From Allobosea sp. (lineage in GTDB: Bacteria > Pseudomonadota > Alphaproteobacteria > Rhizobiales > Beijerinckiaceae), in the NCBI RefSeq assembly GCF_017308075.1, contig NZ_JAFKFX010000024.1, positions 248,001 through 312,000 of the forward strand: a stretch of 64,000 nucleotides of DNA, read 5' to 3'. Position 1 is the stretch's first letter; each line of letters begins with the position of its first letter. Of this stretch, positions 6,876 through 60,522 are shown piece after piece. A program made the translations under genes and the position numbers. Under the pieces are notes generated by a model, which did not search any database, had not been told where the DNA came from, and saw nothing but the letters and a program-made list of their open reading frames with translations.

Positions 6876-6981
6876 TATGGCATCGGGCCGAAAAGTGGAA
6901 TCCACTTTTCGGAAAATTCCGATTCGATAACAATGGCATAGATCACCGTGACCGCGTCCGAACGGACGCGCGGTGATCTAG
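6876..6981. repeat. Composite double-hairpin extragenic repeat, copy A
   Basis: A 106-nt element with a second copy at 56845-56950; I count 8 mismatches by hand alignment. The first hairpin has 12-nt arms (CCGAAAAGTGGA and its complement) around one central base, inside weaker outer arms GCATCGG...CCGAT. A linker with AACAATG follows. The second hairpin nests CGCGTCCG-AA-CGGACGCG inside GATCACCG...CGGTGATC. It lies between the YeaQ-type gene and the exported protein at 7035, within a 338-nt stretch (6697-7034) with no other gene. Such double palindromes resemble REP/BIME-type elements. Confidence 0.85.
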
Positions 6982-53090: not shown

Positions 53091-54056
53091 TCAGAGCTCG
53101 ACCTCGATCCCTTCGGCTCGCGCCTTGGCCCGCAATCCATAGCGCCTCATGCCCGGCAAGCGCGTTCCCGGCTGCTCCTCGATCATATGCGCCAGCAGCT
53201 TCATGCGCTCATCGAACCAGTGGCCGCCCATGCTCGTCGGATCGATGGCGAGGATGAGCTGGCCCGTATCGGGCGGGCCGCCCTTGTCGTCGAGGAAGGA
53301 GGAGGCCTGGAAGGCGAAATGGGTACCGACCAGAGCGGCGGCGAGGATCTCGACCATCATGGCGAGCGTCGCGCCCTTGGCCTCGCCGAGCGGCACCATC
53401 GTGCCGGCGAGCGCAGCGGCGGGGTCGGTCGTCGGCTTGCCGTCGGCATCGAGCGCCCAGCCCTCGGGAATGGCCAGCCCCTTCTGCCTGGCGGCGACGA
53501 TCGGCCCGCGGGCGACCCTGGACAGCGCCATGTCGATGACGACAGGCTCACGGCCGGCGAGCGGCGCAGCGAAGGCGATCGGGTTGGTGCCGAAGACCGG
53601 CTTCGAGCCGCCCCAGGGCGCGATCGCACCAGGCGTGTTCGCAAAGAGCAAGGCGACCAGACCCTGCTCCGCCAGTCGCTCGACATGGTGCCCCGCGGCC
53701 CCGCAATGATTGGAGCGGCGGATCGGTGCCGCGACGATGCCCTGCCAGCGCGCCATCTCCGGCAACTCGACGATGGCGAGGTCGATCGCCGGATAGGCGA
53801 AGCCATGGGCGGCGTCGATGGCCAGCACGCCGGGTCTCGGCTGGCGCGCCGTCGGCACGGCCTGTCCATCGATCTTGCCGGATTTCAGCATGGCGAGATA
53901 GGTCGGCACGCGCGACAGGCCGTGGCCTTTGAGCCCGTCAGCCTCCGCCGCGACCAGGGCCTGCGCCACCGAGGCGGCATTGGCGGCCGACGCACCGGCC
54001 GCGACGAACAGCGCCGCGACCTTCTCCTCCGCTTCTGCGAGCGACAGCCGCGTCAT
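53091..54056 (-). CDS. comC: (R)-sulfolactate dehydrogenase (ComC type, Ldh2 family)
   Basis: 321-residue NAD(P)-dependent dehydrogenase. The LDH2/MDH2 signatures are AEADGLKGHGLSRV, RRSNHCGAAGHHVERLA (catalytic His), VFGTNPIAFAAP and LGEAKGATLAMMVEIL. In sulfolactate degraders ComC reduces sulfopyruvate to (R)-sulfolactate, the enantiomer used by SuyAB. Its start overlaps the slcC stop by 4 nt (ATGA). The assignment rests on the complete suy/slc context; by itself it could be any Ldh2-type hydroxyacid dehydrogenase. Confidence 0.8.
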   Translation of the reverse strand: MTRLSLAEAEEKVAALFVAAGASAANAASVAQALVAAEADGLKGHGLSRVPTYLAMLKSGKIDGQAVPTARQPRPGVLAIDAAHGFAYPAIDLAIVELPEMARWQGIVAAPIRRSNHCGAAGHHVERLAEQGLVALLFANTPGAIAPWGGSKPVFGTNPIAFAAPLAGREPVVIDMALSRVARGPIVAARQKGLAIPEGWALDADGKPTTDPAAALAGTMVPLGEAKGATLAMMVEILAAALVGTHFAFQASSFLDDKGGPPDTGQLILAIDPTSMGGHWFDERMKLLAHMIEEQPGTRLPGMRRYGLRAKARAEGIEVEL

Positions 54057-54985
54057 GCCCGGCCCTCCAGGGCAGCGATCACCCGCTCGGCGACGAGCCC
54101 GGAAACCCGGCCGTTCGATTCGATCGTATTGCCGGCGATATGCGGGGTCAGGATCAGGTTCGGCGTGCCGGCGAACAGCTTGGCGCCGTCCGCCTTGAGC
54201 GGCTCCTGCTCGAAGACGTCGAGCGCCGCTCCTGCGAGCCTGCCGCCCTTCAGCGCCGCGACCAGCTCGGCCTCGTCCATCACGCCGCCGCGCGCCGCAT
54301 TGATCAGGATCGCATCCGGCTTCATCCGGGCGAAAGCCGCCGCACCGATCACGCCACGCGTCTCGGGCGTCAGCGGCAGATGGATCGAGATCACGTCAGA
54401 GGTCGAAAGCAGGGCATCGAGCTCGAGCTTCTCGACGCCCTGCCAGGCCGGCGCGTCGGCCGGCACATAGGGATCATAGGCGGCGACGCTCATGCCGAGC
54501 GCCTGGGCATGCCGGGCGACGTCGCGCGCGATCGCGCCGAAGCCGACCAGCCCCATGCGCTTGCCGGCGATCTCCCGGCCGATCAGCTTCGTCTTCGGAA
54601 ATTCGCCGGCGAGCATCGCCGCATTGGCGAAATAGGCCCCGCGCAGCAGCGTCATCGCCGTGCCGATCACATACTCGACCACGGAGAGAGAATTGGCACC
54701 GGTCGCCGGGAAGACCTTGATCTCGCGCGCCGCGCAGGCTGCCATGTCGATATTGTCGAGGCCGACGCCGAGCCGGCCGACGACCTTGAGGTTCTTCGCA
54801 ACGGCGAGCAGATCGCCCCGCACCTGCGTCTGGTTGCGCACGATCAGGGCCGGAACCGTGGCGACCAGCCGCGCCAACTCTTCCGGTTTGCCGAACAGCT
54901 CGGGATCGTGATGCACGGCGTAGCGCTCGCGCAGCGACGCCACCGCCGCCTCGTCCATGAATTCGGTGATGACGATGTCGGTCAT
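54053..54985 (-). CDS. slcC: (S)-sulfolactate dehydrogenase (SlcC type, D-2-hydroxyacid family)
   Basis: 310-residue dehydrogenase of the D-isomer-specific 2-hydroxyacid family. It has GRLGVGLDNIDM, the NAD-binding GLVGFGAIARDVARHAQ, HLPLTPETRGVIG, NAARGGVMDEAELV, and the catalytic His in TPHIAGNT. SlcC oxidises (S)-sulfolactate to sulfopyruvate. With ComC it interconverts the enantiomers so that both reach SuyAB. The gene is 24 nt downstream of suyZ and overlaps comC. Substrate is inferred from context; the fold is certain. Confidence 0.8.
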   Translation of the reverse strand: MTDIVITEFMDEAAVASLRERYAVHHDPELFGKPEELARLVATVPALIVRNQTQVRGDLLAVAKNLKVVGRLGVGLDNIDMAACAAREIKVFPATGANSLSVVEYVIGTAMTLLRGAYFANAAMLAGEFPKTKLIGREIAGKRMGLVGFGAIARDVARHAQALGMSVAAYDPYVPADAPAWQGVEKLELDALLSTSDVISIHLPLTPETRGVIGAAAFARMKPDAILINAARGGVMDEAELVAALKGGRLAGAALDVFEQEPLKADGAKLFAGTPNLILTPHIAGNTIESNGRVSGLVAERVIAALEGRA

Positions 54986-55009
54986 GGCTTCCTGCTCGGT
55001 TGGCCGTGT

Positions 55010-56062
55010 TCAGCCCATGAGGATCAGGCCGCTCGTGGCGACCAGGAGGATGACGAGGCTGGTGCCCGTGACCAGGGCGATATGGCGCCAGCCGAGCCGC
55101 GCCATCGCCGCGATCGAGGTGCCGAGGCCCAGCGCCGCGATGGCGATCAGCAGCCCCCAGCGCGAGGCCTCCAGCAGCACGTCGCGGATCGGGCCGTAGA
55201 CACCGGCAAAGGCAGGCTGGGTGGCAAGGATGCTGTTCACCAGGCACAGAAGCAGGAAGACGATGGCGAAGACCGGCACAGGCACCTTGGCCTCGCCATG
55301 CTCGCCGCCATGGCGCGTCAGCCACCAGCCGACGATCAGAACCGCCGGCAGCAGCATGAAGACGCGGAAGAGTTTGACGATGACGGCTGCGTTGGCCGCC
55401 TCGTCCGAGACCGACTGGCCGGCACCGACGACCTGCGCAACGTCATGGATGGTCGAGCCCAGCATGACGCCTGTCTGCTGCTCACTCAGGCCGAGCCAGA
55501 CGCAGATCAGCGGATAGGCCAGCATCGCGACCGTCGAAAGCGCGTTCATCGCGATCACGGTGAAGGCGATGTCGGCGGCCTTGTTGCGGTAATCGGGCAC
55601 GACCGTCGCCGTGGCGAGCGCCGCCGAGGCGCCGCAGACGGCGGTGGCGACGCCGCCGAGCGCGCCCATGCCGGTTTCACGGCCGAGCAGGCGCGCCAGC
55701 ACGAAGCCGGAGACGATGGTGGCGGCCATCGAGACCACGACCAGCACGGCCGTGCCGAGGCCGAGCGCGACGATGTCGCCGAGCGCGATGCGCAGTCCGA
55801 GCAGCGCGATCGCCCAGCGCAGCAGCTTCTTGACGCAGAAGGTCATGCCCGGAACGAAGCGCTGATTGTTAGCGACGAGATGCAGCGACATGCCGATCAG
55901 CAGCGCGATGACGACGGCGGGGACGCCGATCCTGCCGCCGGCCATCTGCTTCAGCACCGGCTCGGCCAGCACCGAGACGATGGCCACGACCGTCGAGAGC
56001 ACGATGCCCGGCAGGAGCGGGCCGAGCCCTTTCGCCAGACGCGGGATGGCAGCTTCGGTCAT
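55010..56062 (-). CDS. suyZ: SuyZ, YeiH-family sulfite/sulfate exporter
   Basis: 350-residue inner-membrane protein with about 9-10 hydrophobic helices, of the YeiH/UPF0324 family. Motifs are AIALLGLRIALGDI, AVCGASAALATATVV and STIHDVAQVVGAG. In sulfonate degraders this family (SuyZ) is proposed to export sulfite or sulfate released by the lyase. Its ATG overlaps the stop of the GNAT gene before it (ATGA), and slcC follows 24 nt later. Confidence 0.88.
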   Translation of the reverse strand: MTEAAIPRLAKGLGPLLPGIVLSTVVAIVSVLAEPVLKQMAGGRIGVPAVVIALLIGMSLHLVANNQRFVPGMTFCVKKLLRWAIALLGLRIALGDIVALGLGTAVLVVVSMAATIVSGFVLARLLGRETGMGALGGVATAVCGASAALATATVVPDYRNKAADIAFTVIAMNALSTVAMLAYPLICVWLGLSEQQTGVMLGSTIHDVAQVVGAGQSVSDEAANAAVIVKLFRVFMLLPAVLIVGWWLTRHGGEHGEAKVPVPVFAIVFLLLCLVNSILATQPAFAGVYGPIRDVLLEASRWGLLIAIAALGLGTSIAAMARLGWRHIALVTGTSLVILLVATSGLILMG

Positions 56063-56646
56063 GATTGCAAATCGATCCGGTACATCAGGCGCTCCTCGGG
56101 GCCGTAGAATGGAGCGACGAAATTCTCGACGAAAAGCCCGCCATTCTTCTCGATGATCCGCCGCGAGGCCGCATTCTCGGCGTCGCAGGTGATCTTGACG
56201 AAGCGCAGGCCGATTGCGCGGGCTTCGGCGAGCACCGCCGCCAAGGCGGCGCTGGCATAGCCTCGCCCGGCATGGCCCGGCAGGATCGTATAGCCGACAT
56301 GGCCGAGGACATGCGGCGGCAGCGTCGTGACCGGCCGGCCGGCGGCATCCTCCTGCCAGCGCAGGTTGATCGAGCCGACGAAGGGGCGCTCAGGCTGATC
56401 GATGGCGATGATCCAGCGGATGATATCAGGCAAGCGCTCGACTTCGCTGCCGTCATGCAGACGAATCTTGCCACCCCGTCCGTTCAGCCCGGCCAGGAAC
56501 ATGGCGGGATCGGCCGCGATCGCCGCGAGTTGCTCGGGCGCGACGTCGCGCATCGTGTTCGGGGACCAGCCCGCTTCCAAGGCATGGACATAGGCGGGCA
56601 ACACGTCCCGCCCTGGCGCATGCAGTGAAACGATCCTGTCCGACAC
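56059..56646 (-). CDS. GNAT-family N-acetyltransferase inside the sulfolactate operon
   Basis: 195-residue acetyltransferase. The acetyl-CoA pyrophosphate loop is LPGHAGRGYASAALAAVL and the following helix IGLRFVKITCDAENAASRRI is typical of RimJ-type GNATs. The start at GTG 56646 was chosen because GAGG precedes it by 5 nt and the family N-terminus begins there. The frame is open to 56874, through a repeat element, without coding character. Its stop overlaps the suyZ start, so the two are translationally coupled. No GNAT is a known member of sulfolactate loci that I recall; substrate unknown. Confidence 0.8.
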   Translation of the reverse strand: MSDRIVSLHAPGRDVLPAYVHALEAGWSPNTMRDVAPEQLAAIAADPAMFLAGLNGRGGKIRLHDGSEVERLPDIIRWIIAIDQPERPFVGSINLRWQEDAAGRPVTTLPPHVLGHVGYTILPGHAGRGYASAALAAVLAEARAIGLRFVKITCDAENAASRRIIEKNGGLFVENFVAPFYGPEERLMYRIDLQS

Positions 56647-56711
56647 TCTTGCCTCGTCGCCCCTGGAGATCTTGCTCCTTAAAGCCCGCAGATCTCGCCG
56701 GAAACCACCGT

Positions 56712-56815
56712 CGTCATCCTGGCGAGCCAGGCTCGGCCCGGGATCCATCGTAGTGCGCGAGGGCCTTACAATGGTTTCCGGATCTGCACGGCTGCGCCGC
56801 CTATCCGGGATGACG
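56712..56815. repeat. Extragenic element with CGTCATCC...GGATGACG ends
   Basis: About 104 nt bounded by inverted 8-nt ends CGTCATCC and GGATGACG, with internal CCCGGGATCCA and TATCCGGGATGA. Such elements are frequent extragenic repeats in Hyphomicrobiales as far as I recall. Together with the next repeat it fills the 300-nt gap (56647-56946) between suyB and the GNAT gene. Confidence 0.55.
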
Positions 56816-56844
56816 ACGTGGCTCCGGAGAACACCCGCATGCTC

Positions 56845-56950
56845 TATAGCATCGGACCGAAAAGTGGACTCCACTTTTCGGAAAACTCCGATGCGATAAC
56901 AATGAGATAGATCACCGTGACCGCGTCCGAACGGACGCGCGGCGATCTAG
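56845..56950. repeat. Composite double-hairpin extragenic repeat, copy B
   Basis: Second copy of the 106-nt element described at 6876, same orientation. Its first hairpin has perfect outer arms GCATCGG and CCGATGC around CCGAAAAGTGGA and its complement; the second nests CGCGTCCG-AA-CGGACGCG. The end of the repeat supplies the TAG stop of suyB (56947-56949), so the element abuts or trimmed the coding region. It may act as a transcript-end or processing site between suyAB and the downstream genes. Confidence 0.85.
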
Positions 56951-58230
56951 GCGCTGCGGTATAGCTTGGTCATCGAGAATTCGCGATGGCCCAGCGCCTC
57001 GGCTGCCGTGAGGCGGCCATTCGCTGTGCGCACGATGTTCTCGATCAGCGCGTCGCCGGCCTGCGGAATCGTCATATCGCGGCGCAGGATACCGGAGACG
57101 TCGACGTCGATATGCTCCGGCATGGTCCGCATCGTCTTCGGGTTGCCGGTGATCTTGATCACCGGGACGATCGGGTTGCCGATGACGTTGCCCTGCCCGG
57201 TCGGGAAGGTGTGCACGACAAAACCGCCAGCCGCCATCAGGGTCACGCACTCGGCCGCAGCCGAGGAGGTGTCCATGTAGTAGAGCCCCGGCCCGTTCGC
57301 CGGCGTCTGCGCCGGCTCCAGGATGTCGATGAACTTGCACTCGCGGCCGATCTTCTCGAGATTGCCGAGCGCCTTTTCCTCGATCGTCGTCAGGCCGCCG
57401 GCGATATTGCCCTTGGTCGGCTGCGAATCCGAGAGGTCGTCGGTCTTGTGGGCCTCGATCACGTCGTCCTGATAGGCCTTCCACATCTTGTACCAGCGCT
57501 CGCCGACCTCCGGCGTCGCGGCGCGCGCCTTGCAGAGATGCTCGGCGCCGGTGATCTCGGAGGTCTCGCCGAAGACGCCATGGACCCCGCGCGGAATCCA
57601 TTTGTCGTACATGTTGCCGACCGTCGGGCAGGAGGACAGGCCGGTCGTCGTGTCCGACTCGCCGCACTTGGTCGAGACCCAGAGCTCCTCGATGCCGCAT
57701 TTCACGCGCTGCAGCTCGGTCGCCCACTGCACGAACTCCTTCGCGACATAGGAGGCGCGGGCGATGGTCGAGATGTCGCCATGACCCTCGATGCCGAAGC
57801 CGACCACCGGCTTGCCGGTCTTGGCGATGCCGTCGACGACGCGCTTGGTCCAGCCATCCTCGATGCCGATCACGACCACGGCCGCGACGTTCGGGTTCGC
57901 GCCGGTGCCGATCAGTGTGCGGAAATGGATTTCGAGGTCCTCGCCGAACTGCAGCCGGCCATAGGCATGCGGGATCGCCAGCGTGCCCTTGACGTTGTTG
58001 GCGACGGCCTCGCAGGCGGCATTGGAGAGATCGTCGAGCGGCAGCAACAGGACATGATTGCGCACGCCGACGCGGCCGTTCTCGCGGCGCCAGCCCATGA
58101 AGGAATCGAGCGAGCGGCCGCTCGGGCGCTTGATCTGCGGAACCTTGAACTCTGGCGCCTCGATCTTGCGGCCTTTGATGCGGCCCAGCTTGCCCTTCAC
58201 GAGATCGAAATTGGCGACGATGGAAGACAT
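56947..58230 (-). CDS. suyB: (2R)-sulfolactate sulfo-lyase subunit beta
   Basis: 427-residue large subunit that with SuyA cleaves (R)-sulfolactate to pyruvate and sulfite. It belongs to the UxaA (altronate/galactarate dehydratase) family, with [14 protein letters not shown] near residue 52, [13 protein letters not shown], the metal/substrate Cys region [20 protein letters not shown] (C189, C201) and [20 protein letters not shown]. SuyB is preferred over altronate dehydratase because suyA-type, suyZ, slcC, comC and suyR surround it and no uronate genes are near. GAGGGA lies 6 nt before the start; suyA is 70 nt upstream. Confidence 0.9.
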
Positions 58231-58300
58231 GGAAAAATCCCTCGGCTGAGGGCTCGACCCGCTCGGGGAGCCCGATTTCAGGAATCGCGGCGGGCGAAAT

Positions 58301-58588
58301 TCACCAGCGCTTGGTCTTCACATTGTGGATGTGGAGATGCTCGCCCTGGCGGATGTCACCGATGGCCTTGCCGATGTCCTGGCCGTATTTCCAGATCGTG
58401 TCGCCCTTCTTGATATCCTTCAACGCGACCTTGTGGCCGATCGGGATATCCATCTTGGCGGTCAGGCGGAAATCGGAATTGTCGTGAGTTACGACGCCGA
58501 GCATGTCGGTCCCGGCCTTGAGGCCCTCGACGACGACGACGCCGACGGTGTCCTTCTTCTCGTGCACCAAGAGATGCGGCTTGCTCAT
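58301..58588 (-). CDS. suyA: (2R)-sulfolactate sulfo-lyase subunit alpha
   Basis: 95-residue small subunit homologous to the SAF domain at the N-terminus of altronate dehydratase. It has [42 protein letters not shown] read as family SAF motifs, and a C-terminal [11 protein letters not shown]. It works with SuyB. GGAGG lies 6 nt upstream of the ATG. It is the first gene of the operon suyA-suyB-GNAT-suyZ-slcC-comC and diverges from suyR over a palindromic operator-like site. Confidence 0.9.
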
Positions 58589-58660
58589 TGCGGCCTCCTT
58601 GCAGCTTCCTCGGATCGGTCGTCGCTCTCCGAAATCGGGGCTCGACCTTGCTTATCTCAA

Positions 58661-58674
58661 GTCTTATATAAGAC
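58661..58674. promoter_or_regulatory. Perfect palindrome between suyA and suyR, probable SuyR operator
   Basis: GTCTTATATAAGAC is a perfect 14-nt dyad with GT...AC ends, the usual form of GntR-family operators. It overlaps likely -10 boxes in both directions: TATATA (58665-58670) for suyR with TCGACC 17 nt upstream, and TATAAG on the minus strand for suyA with TTGTGC 16 nt upstream. It would let one regulator control both transcripts. Confidence 0.6.
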
Positions 58675-58724
58675 ACATGAGTGTGCACAAGCTCGAAAAT
58701 GCAGCGCGGCCCGGCGAGGCCGGA

Positions 58725-59441
58725 ATGCCGGAGGCGCTGGGCTTCCGTCCGCTCTATCGGCAAGTGAAGGCCATCTTCGTGCGCCGGCTCGTCGATGGTG
58801 TCTGGGCACCCGGCGCCGTCCTGCCGAGCGAAGGCCAGCTCGCCGCCGAGATCGGCGTCAGCCAGGGCACGGTGCGCAAGGCGCTGGACGAACTCGCAGC
58901 GGAGAATCTGGTCGTGCGGCGCCAGGGGCGCGGCACCTTCGTCGCCGAGCATGACGAGCGGCGAATCCTCTTCCAGTTCTTCAAGCTCGCACCCGATCAG
59001 GGCGCGCCGCGCTTTCCCGACAGTGTCGTCCTCAGCACCAAGACGGCCTTCGCCGATGCTGGCGAACGCGAGGCGCTCGACCTCGCAGACAGCGAGACCG
59101 TCATCCGCATCCGGCGACTGCGCTCACTCGGCGAGCGGCCGCTGATCGTCGAGACCCTGAGCCTGCCGCAGCGACTCTTTCCGGGGCTCGAGACCGGGCC
59201 CGTTCCGAACAATCTCTACAGCCTCTATGCCGGCCATTACGGCATCACCATCGCCCATGCCCGGGAACGCCTCAAGGCTGTGGCGCTCGGCAGCGAGGAC
59301 GCAACCGCGCTCGGCGTCGCAGCCGGCGATCCCGCATTACAGATCGACAGGCTCGCCCTTTCGCTCGACGGCATGCCCGTCGAGCGCCGGCTCAGCCTGT
59401 GCCTGACACAGGAGGTCCACTACCTCTCCGACCTGCGCTGA
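58725..59441 (+). CDS. suyR: SuyR, GntR-family (HutC subfamily) regulator
   Basis: 238-residue regulator. The winged helix (about 5-70; VLPSEGQLAAEIGVSQGTVR) is followed by a UTRA effector domain (about 85-238; ETVIRIRRLRSLGERPLI, ALQIDRLALSLDGMPVE). It diverges from suyA and is the likely local repressor, with a sulfolactate-type inducer. The start at 58725 has GAGG 5 nt upstream; an in-frame ATG at 58677 would add 16 residues but lies 2 nt after the palindrome and lacks a ribosome-binding site. The name follows sulfolactate loci and is by context. Confidence 0.82.
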   Translation: MPEALGFRPLYRQVKAIFVRRLVDGVWAPGAVLPSEGQLAAEIGVSQGTVRKALDELAAENLVVRRQGRGTFVAEHDERRILFQFFKLAPDQGAPRFPDSVVLSTKTAFADAGEREALDLADSETVIRIRRLRSLGERPLIVETLSLPQRLFPGLETGPVPNNLYSLYAGHYGITIAHARERLKAVALGSEDATALGVAAGDPALQIDRLALSLDGMPVERRLSLCLTQEVHYLSDLR

Positions 59442-59517
59442 GGGGCGCAAGGTCGGCAGAGACCGCACTTTTCCAAGCAAGCCGCCGCAGAGCGGTCAGC
59501 CCAACCGGAGGAAGTGA

Positions 59518-60522
59518 ATGATTGCAGGTCTCAGACGCTTGCTGGCGACGCGCCGTAGCGCCCTCGCCGGCTTGATGGCATTCGCGCTTTGCGCGCCCGC
59601 CGCAGCCCAGAACTTTCCGACCAAGCCCATCACCCTGATCGTGCCCTTCGCAGCCGGCGGCCCCAGCGACGTGATCGCGCGGCTTCTCGGCGAGCATATG
59701 GGCCGGACGCTCGGCCAGCAGGTCGTGGTCGAGAATGTCGCCGGAGCCGGCGGCACCGCCGGAGCCAAACGCCTCGCCAGCGCCGACGCCGATGGACACA
59801 CGCTGCTGATCCACCACCTGGCCCTGGCCGCCGCGCCATCGCTCTACAGCAATCTCGGCTATGACACGCAAACCGCCTTCGCCCCGGTCGGCCTGGTCAA
59901 TACCGGCCCGATGGTCATCGCCGGCAAGCTCGCTTTGCCACCGGTCGACGGCAAGGCCTTCTTCCCCTTCGCCAAGCAGCAGGCCGACAAGCTGACCATC
60001 GCCCATGCCGGCGTCGGCTCGAACGCGCATCTTTGCGCCGTTCTGCTCTCCCAGGCTCTCGGGGTGAAATTCGCCCAGGTCGCCTATCGCGGCACAGGCC
60101 CGGCGATGAACGATCTCGTCGCTGGCCAGGTCGACGTGCTCTGCGATCAGTCGACCACCGCCGTCCCGCAGATCCAGGGCGACAAGATCCGCGCCTATGC
60201 GGTGACCTCGGCCGAGCGCCTCGACGTCCTGCCCAATGTCCCGACCGCGGAGCAGGCCGGCACCAGGATCGACATGACGATCTGGCACGGGCTCTACGCC
60301 CCGAAAGGCACGCCTACGGCGGCGCTCGACAAGCTCAACACGGCTCTCGCCGGTGCGCTGAAGCAGCCGACCGTGCTCGAACGCTTCAAGGCCGTCGGCA
60401 CCAGCGCCTTCCCACAGGCCGAATGGAGCCGCGAGGCGCATGCAAAGCGCTTCGCAGCCGAGATCGCCAAATGGGCGGCCTCGCTCAAGGCGGCCGGCGT
60501 CACCCAGCAGACCGTCAACTGA
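59518..60522 (+). CDS. Bug/TctC-family periplasmic binding protein
   Basis: 334-residue tripartite tricarboxylate transporter-type receptor. The signal peptide ([16 protein letters not shown], cleavage near residue 30) is followed by [35 protein letters not shown] and the mid-protein [20 protein letters not shown]. In sulfolactate loci such a protein (SlcH type) delivers sulfolactate to membrane partners. Here no TctA/TctB permease genes adjoin, so it is an orphan in this window. It is 76 nt downstream of suyR in the same direction. Ligand not proven. Confidence 0.88.

Follow-up and report, generated by a model that had tools for sequence, protein, structure and literature searches.

A predicted SlcC-ComC-SuyAB-type operon for sulfolactate catabolism in Allobosea, with a candidate SuyR operator and an embedded acetyltransferase gene

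Introduction

The breakdown of the plant sulfosugar sulfoquinovose yields sulfolactate among other products, and bacteria that are able to cleave sulfolactate recycle it. The reference for a sulfolactate pathway of the SlcC-ComC-SuyAB kind is reportedly the 2010 work of Denger and Cook. The closest described systems are those of Chromohalobacter salexigens, Taurinivorans muris and Paracoccus (available portions of PMC10507020, PMC12421959, PMC9594981 and PMC5812351). According to the available text of the first three of these sources, (S)-sulfolactate is converted via sulfopyruvate to (R)-sulfolactate, and the latter to pyruvate and sulfite, and expression evidence for the route exists in other bacteria. 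In the present work, we analyzed a block of genes at positions 53091-60522 of a 64,000-nucleotide stretch of DNA (hereafter the window) from Allobosea sp. (Beijerinckiaceae; contig NZ_JAFKFX010000024.1). The block contains the same SuyA, SuyB, SlcC-type and ComC-type genes as the systems above, together with one for a TctC-type protein, and is very probably a sulfolactate catabolic operon of this kind, which would enable growth on both enantiomers of sulfolactate.

An initial annotation of the window had proposed sulfolactate degradation, and this reading is supported by the grouping of SuyB and by the published route. The observations reported below concern the gene content of the locus, the grouping of its SuyB, the conserved linkage of its genes, the conservation of an operator-like palindrome and the presence of SorAB-like genes elsewhere in the genome.

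Gene organization and conserved linkage

Seven genes had been named in the initial annotation (suyA, suyB, slcC, comC, suyZ, suyR and tctC; the labels suyR and suyZ are, we presume, the names in use for these two). All seven were confirmed as intact open frames at the positions given here, each in the expected Pfam family, while a gene for a GNAT N-acetyltransferase inside the operon had been overlooked. On the minus strand, the order is suyA (58301-58588), suyB (56947-58230), the GNAT gene (56059-56646), suyZ (55010-56062), slcC (54053-54985) and comC (53091-54056); on the plus strand, 76 bases separate the end of suyR (59441) from tctC (59518-60522). Four-base overlaps, one between comC and slcC and the other between the GNAT gene and suyZ, give the minus-strand genes an operon-like arrangement.

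In the stretches fetched from 35 relatives with SuyB, a ComC-type gene was detected 29 times, an SlcC-type gene 23 times and a SuyZ-type gene 16 times (E 1e-10 or better, 40% coverage; contig ends truncate some of the stretches, and the counts include one SlcC match at 41%, in L070, and one ComC gene on the opposite strand, in L075). Such recurrence indicates that the clustering is not due to chance. The relatives in which the block recurs with slcC, comC, suyZ, suyR and tctC include Methylobacterium and Rhodococcus plasmids that carry both dehydrogenase genes.

The sulfo-lyase subunits

SuyB, the predicted large subunit of the sulfo-lyase (427 residues; GD_AH_C and GD_AH_second, PF20629/PF04295), is placed by its sequence with the sulfo-lyases and apart from the UxaA/GarD dehydratases. 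Enzymes of the SuyAB type are characterized by an iron-dependent liberation of sulfite from (R)-sulfolactate. It shares 68.6% identity with its counterpart in Cupriavidus pinatubonensis HN-2, 79% with that of Paracoccus versutus and 86% with that of Methylobacterium oryzae. In a plasmid search with SuyB, 13 of the 314 matching records fell at 60-86% identity, the nearest named ones being from Methylobacterium, and 301 were below 60%, the best of these reaching 38.7% among the 60 of 314 matches listed. Within the family, 36 of the 119 sampled genomes (its own included) matched at 74% identity or more, with the next best at 39%, and the locus adds a clear case of a predicted sulfolactate operon to this family. 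In a tree of 58 rows, six UxaA/GarD-type rows were split from the SuyB rows with support of 100/100; long-branch warnings were raised among the six outgroup rows, and the sequence of the window's own genome was entered twice (from the window and as L041). The gene for the predicted small subunit, SuyA (95 residues; SAF domain, PF08666, 24.7 bits against a cut-off of 21), lies directly before suyB, and its product is 72% identical to that of P. versutus and 49% to that of C. pinatubonensis.

None of the matching records bears the name SuyB, and the C. pinatubonensis HN-2 reference was identified through gene order. In HN-2, hpsN and hpsO are followed in a row by genes of the MFS and alcohol-dehydrogenase types and then by two genes annotated as "UxaA family hydrolase". 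The cluster order in strain JMP134 of the same species is hpsRNOUPsuyAB (available portion of PMC11382572), which the HN-2 order fits, and the "UxaA family hydrolase" pair was therefore taken as suyAB.

Annotation by family models would suggest that SuyAB is instead a sugar-acid dehydratase of the altronate/galactarate type, with both dehydrogenases of the operon acting on ordinary 2-hydroxyacids. All of the Pfam and NCBIfam models that match SuyB are of the galactarate/altronate dehydratase type, as is the case for SuyA in NCBIfam, and the sole relative of SuyB in the PDB at E 0.01 is the galactarate dehydratase 6u7l. The NCBIfam galactarate dehydratase score of SuyB, however, is far under the cut-off (124.7 against 730.85), and both the gap in identity between the 13 SuyB-type records and the best other match listed and the tree split place it elsewhere. 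We consider this alternative extremely improbable, and on the identity gap and the tree an altronate/galactarate dehydratase identity for SuyB was rejected. SuyAB is hence not closer to those dehydratases than to the sulfo-lyases, a point on which the initial annotation had staked its reading.

In the alignment, SuyB of the window has an N-terminal extension of ∼42 residues (58105-58230) relative to the C. pinatubonensis and Paracoccus proteins. The family matches to SuyB start at residue 1-3 in 16 genomes, its own included.

The dehydrogenase pair

The operon with suyAB also encodes a D-2-hydroxyacid dehydrogenase, SlcC (310 residues; 2-Hacid_dh_C, 195 bits, PF02826/PF00389), and an Ldh_2-family dehydrogenase, ComC (321 residues; PF02615, 334.6 bits), which are candidates for the (S)- and the (R)-sulfolactate dehydrogenase, respectively. 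The pair encoded in the suy cluster of Methylobacterium radiotolerans is 61% (SlcC) and 64% (ComC) identical to that of the window, and the pair from the suyAB cluster of Rhodococcus koreensis is 41% and 38% identical. The top NCBIfam model for ComC is NF040650, L-sulfolactate dehydrogenase; the best PDB relative is 1wtj, and the L-sulfolactate dehydrogenase 2x06 was matched as well. From their gene context, SlcC and ComC would act on sulfolactate and sulfopyruvate.

SuyR and its predicted operator

The suyR gene encodes a HutC-type GntR regulator (PF00392) with a UTRA ligand domain (PF07702), and starts at the ATG at 58677 or, judging by the beginning of the domain, at the ATG at 58725. Between suyR and suyA lies a perfect palindrome of 14 bases, GTCTTATATAAGAC (58661-58674), which we predict to be the SuyR operator. 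A -35 box (TTGTGC) and a -10 box (TATAAG, 58663-58668), recognized by eye before suyA and 16 bases apart, overlap the palindrome. With the putative suyA promoter thus overlapped, repression would be the simplest reading.

The palindrome is the sole such site in the 5.55-Mb assembly at up to 2 mismatches. A control pattern, the same sequence read backwards, likewise matched the genome once on the forward and once on the reverse strand, and the sole occurrence of GTCTTATATAAGAC is therefore unremarkable by itself. Conservation upstream of suyA provides the stronger evidence for an operator: of 43 loci, 33 contain a 12-base core, TCTTATATAAGA, with at most one mismatch in the 300 bases that precede suyA, where 200 dinucleotide shuffles per locus would predict 0.005. 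At the same mismatch limit, the core was present in all 31 loci that had a SuyR-like match (identity of 40% or more, at any place in the stretch and any coverage), versus 2 of the 12 loci that lacked one; this table was counted by hand, and since the loci are related, its Fisher p-value is not a true probability.

A wholly new operator motif was considered and dropped, since the HutC-subfamily regulator SdhR shares the same core: its motif, TCTTATGTCTTATATAAGACATAAGA, contains the 14-base GTCTTATATAAGAC identically (available portion of PMC4494728). As distinct from the SdhR case, the site in the window lies in the gap that separates suyR from suyA, and has no other copy in the genome at the limit of 2 mismatches. 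Among the papers listed in a literature search (20 of 155 in one listing), whose scope left out most subscription papers, none was seen to link a site of this type with SuyR; the word suyR occurs once in PMC6018796.

A second copy of the core was observed in 10 of the 43 loci, exact in L034, L035 and L053 and with one mismatch in L057, L058, L059, L061, L062, L064 and L068. On a plasmid of M. radiotolerans (L034:9107), the exact second palindrome stands before a gene for a TauE-type exporter, and on a plasmid of Sinorhizobium mexicanum (L035:6984) it stands beside ABC binding-protein, HpaI-type aldolase and lactonase-family genes.

Substrates that may feed the locus

In terms of the supply of sulfolactate, several upstream routes were searched for in the genome of the window. 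The only relative of HpsN was a 38% HisD-like match without the GRY(A/S)H motif, which marks HpsN as GSAPL marks HisD (available portion of PMC11382572); GSAPL as spelled is absent as well, the protein reading GGTASYPSS there. Use of 2,3-dihydroxypropane-1-sulfonate (DHPS) via HpsN was ruled out on this ground. The Xsc branch was likewise rejected, as nothing in the genome exceeded the TIGR03457 cut-off (best score 274.3 against 676.4 bits). With no match above threshold to HpsN, Xsc, GH31 or sulfoquinovose isomerase, the strain probably scavenges sulfolactate that is released by others.

Cysteate could alternatively be the main substrate, being transaminated to sulfopyruvate, which would then be reduced to (R)-sulfolactate and cleaved by SuyAB. 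The same enzymes would suffice once sulfopyruvate had formed, and P. pantotrophus NKNCYSA is reported to use a sulfolactate sulfo-lyase in the dissimilation of cysteate (Rein et al. 2005, as cited in PMC12421959). The presence of two dehydrogenases of different families, however, is better suited to the racemization of sulfolactate. Moreover, none of the ten genes scanned in and around the block encodes an aminotransferase, the rest of the genome not having been searched for one; the flanks hold an adenine deaminase gene and ruvX- and dprA-like genes (the latter assigned by eye from the list of open reading frames). We regard cysteate as an unlikely main substrate.

The locus might also be the downstream portion of a full sulfosugar route in this organism, its true substrate being sulfoquinovose or a relative thereof. 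This proposal draws on a congener, G084, in which a second operator precedes genes for a PfkB kinase, a LacD-type aldolase, a sulfoquinovose-isomerase-like protein and a Gfo/Idh/MocA protein, near the suy block (L053:1984-6756). The isomerase-like gene occurs in 7 of the 119 family genomes, all of them among the 36 with SuyB, and in 5 of the 7 it shares a 20-kb stretch with suyAB; its product scores 270 bits against the cut-off of 700 of the named sulfoquinovose isomerase model. In G084, it is possible that a complete route from sulfosugar to sulfite exists in one organism, and extended SuyAB pathways have been described in Thermotogae and Chloroflexi (PMC9594981) and, for sulfofucose, in Paracoccus (PMC12421959; available portions of both). 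The genome of the window, in contrast, lacks a further copy of the operator within 2 mismatches, as well as any isomerase match at 1e-30 or GH31 match, in a search that did not extend to GH188-type glycosidases or sulfofucose genes. Use of sulfoquinovose by the strain was accordingly set aside, and a complete sulfosugar pathway in this organism appears very unlikely.

Uptake and the orphan TctC

The product of tctC (334 residues; PF03401, 172.6 bits) is a solute-binding protein of the TTT type, whose best PDB relative is BugD (2f5x, E 1.2e-83). The initial annotation had described the TctA/B-type permeases as missing. This holds for the neighborhood, where no TctA match was found near tctC, and does not hold for the genome, which contains ten TctA matches elsewhere. 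Each of these ten loci has its own TctC-like gene, the closest of which (the C12 locus) encodes a protein 48% identical to that of the window. With no neighboring permease, and with all ten TctA loci already provided for, the TctC of the window is considered an orphan. Other TctC proteins without a permease partner have been described, and the TTT system named for sulfolactate is SlcHFG (available portion of PMC5812351). In three loci from one genus (L068, L069 and L071), a TctC gene and apparent TctA and TctB genes (clusters c10/c11, as judged by eye) adjoin suyA.

Export and oxidation of sulfite

The suyZ gene within the operon encodes a YeiH-type membrane protein (350 residues; PF03601, 216.9 bits), a candidate exporter of sulfite or sulfate, which is 40% identical to a P. 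versutus protein that is annotated as "putative sulfate exporter" and encoded after suyAB. No relative of SuyZ was detected in the PDB at E 0.01.

A sulfite dehydrogenase had also been described as missing in the initial annotation; none lies in the neighborhood, but SorAB-like genes are present on another contig. The SorA-like protein (G000:C37:39323-40591) is 53% identical to a "sulfite oxidase" encoded near the P. versutus suy cluster, and its gene is followed by one for a small c-type cytochrome that matches SorB. The leader of the SorA-like protein appears by eye to be of the twin-arginine translocation (Tat) kind, such that sulfite would first have to exit the cytoplasm, a possible role for SuyZ. 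Upstream of these SorAB-like genes, at L178:6870-8139, an ECF-sigma-like gene and an apparent anti-sigma factor gene were recognized by eye.

The embedded acetyltransferase gene

The GNAT gene, located between suyB and suyZ, encodes 195 residues from a GTG start (PF13302/PF00583); the same start was read by eye in two congeners, and the stop-to-stop frame, which was used in the Pfam scan, extends to 56946 (271 residues). For the family search and the substitution ratios, a frame five residues shorter than that from the GTG was employed. Homologs were detected in 12 of the 119 family genomes (E 1e-15). In 6 of these, from two genera, the gene adjoins suyB, and in the other 6 it is located elsewhere. 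A branch with support of 94/94, just under the usual line, sets the six suyB-adjacent copies apart, and L053 forms a long branch within this group. The ratio of nonsynonymous to synonymous substitution rates (dN/dS) was 0.18 and 0.23 relative to two congeners and 0.47 relative to a more distant third. One congener (G110) carries the suy block without the GNAT gene, which consequently cannot be essential everywhere. Among solved structures, only weak matches to YycN were obtained (E 0.0028 and 0.0038), and no role for an acetyltransferase in the sulfolactate pathway was found in the available portions of the pathway literature examined.

The junction between suyB and the GNAT gene contains a 28-base palindromic repeat, TTTCCGAAAAGTGGANTCCACTTTTCGG (56857-56884), which recurs in the window at 6888-6915. 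With up to 2 mismatches allowed, the genome holds 37 matches to it, of which two overlap at one place, and the backwards-read control gave none. A different inverted repeat was seen by eye at the same junction in G084.

A broader proposal, which we advance only tentatively and hold to be doubtful, is that the acetyltransferase is a dedicated, long-standing part of sulfolactate catabolism in this family, and that in relatives SuyR and its palindrome form a common switch uniting sulfosugar splitting, sulfite export and cleavage by SuyAB in one regulon. On these terms, the acetyltransferase would carry out a step or a control as yet undescribed for the pathway, and the organism of the window would have kept only the last part of the regulon.

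Proposed pathway

In the pathway proposed for this locus, the substrates, activities, transport steps and direction of regulation are all deduced from sequence. Sulfolactate would be taken up, perhaps through capture by TctC and passage through a TctAB permease encoded elsewhere. SlcC would then oxidize (S)-sulfolactate to sulfopyruvate, which ComC would reduce to (R)-sulfolactate, the pair serving as a racemase, and SuyAB would cleave the (R)-enantiomer to pyruvate and sulfite. The sulfite would exit via SuyZ and be oxidized outside the inner membrane by the SorAB-like dehydrogenase. SuyR, bound to the palindrome over the putative suyA promoter, would repress the operon until released by a ligand, perhaps sulfolactate.

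Several points weigh against this interpretation, in addition to the control matches for the palindrome given above. The scores of its key proteins lie under the respective NCBIfam cut-offs: ComC reaches 192.1 bits against 500, SuyZ 126 against 232.6 (TIGR00698), the SorA-like protein 232 against 600 and the SorB-like protein 29.6 against 93, and the nearest named model for SlcC, also under its cut-off, is phosphoglycerate dehydrogenase. With ComC, SlcC and SuyZ scoring in this manner, their substrates rest on context. Chromohalobacter, sought as a source of named SlcC and ComC references, was absent among the best 80 loci from a contig scan led by the C. pinatubonensis SuyB, loci that by their titles were mostly betaproteobacterial. 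Finally, tctC has no permease gene beside it, and a TctC-like gene is already present at every one of the ten TctA loci.

Comparison with known systems

The locus shares features with several described clusters. On plasmid pTAV3 of P. versutus, the same order of regulator, suyA, suyB and PF03601-type exporter is found, and the same stretch additionally carries hpsNOP-like, ABC transporter, pyruvate carboxylase, transhydrogenase and sulfite oxidase genes; unlike the window, it has no slcC or comC match. The hpsRNOUPsuyAB cluster of C. pinatubonensis has the same SuyA and SuyB, at the identities given above, and in HN-2 a TctC gene follows suyB, whereas the genome of the window has no HpsN. In comparison with the SlcC-ComC-SuyAB systems, the SlcHFG transporter is reduced in the window to a lone TctC, and the operon additionally encodes an exporter of the YeiH type and the GNAT protein. 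The pathway itself is already known, and what the locus contributes to it is a modest pair of extras, namely the predicted SuyR operator and the conserved acetyltransferase gene within the operon.

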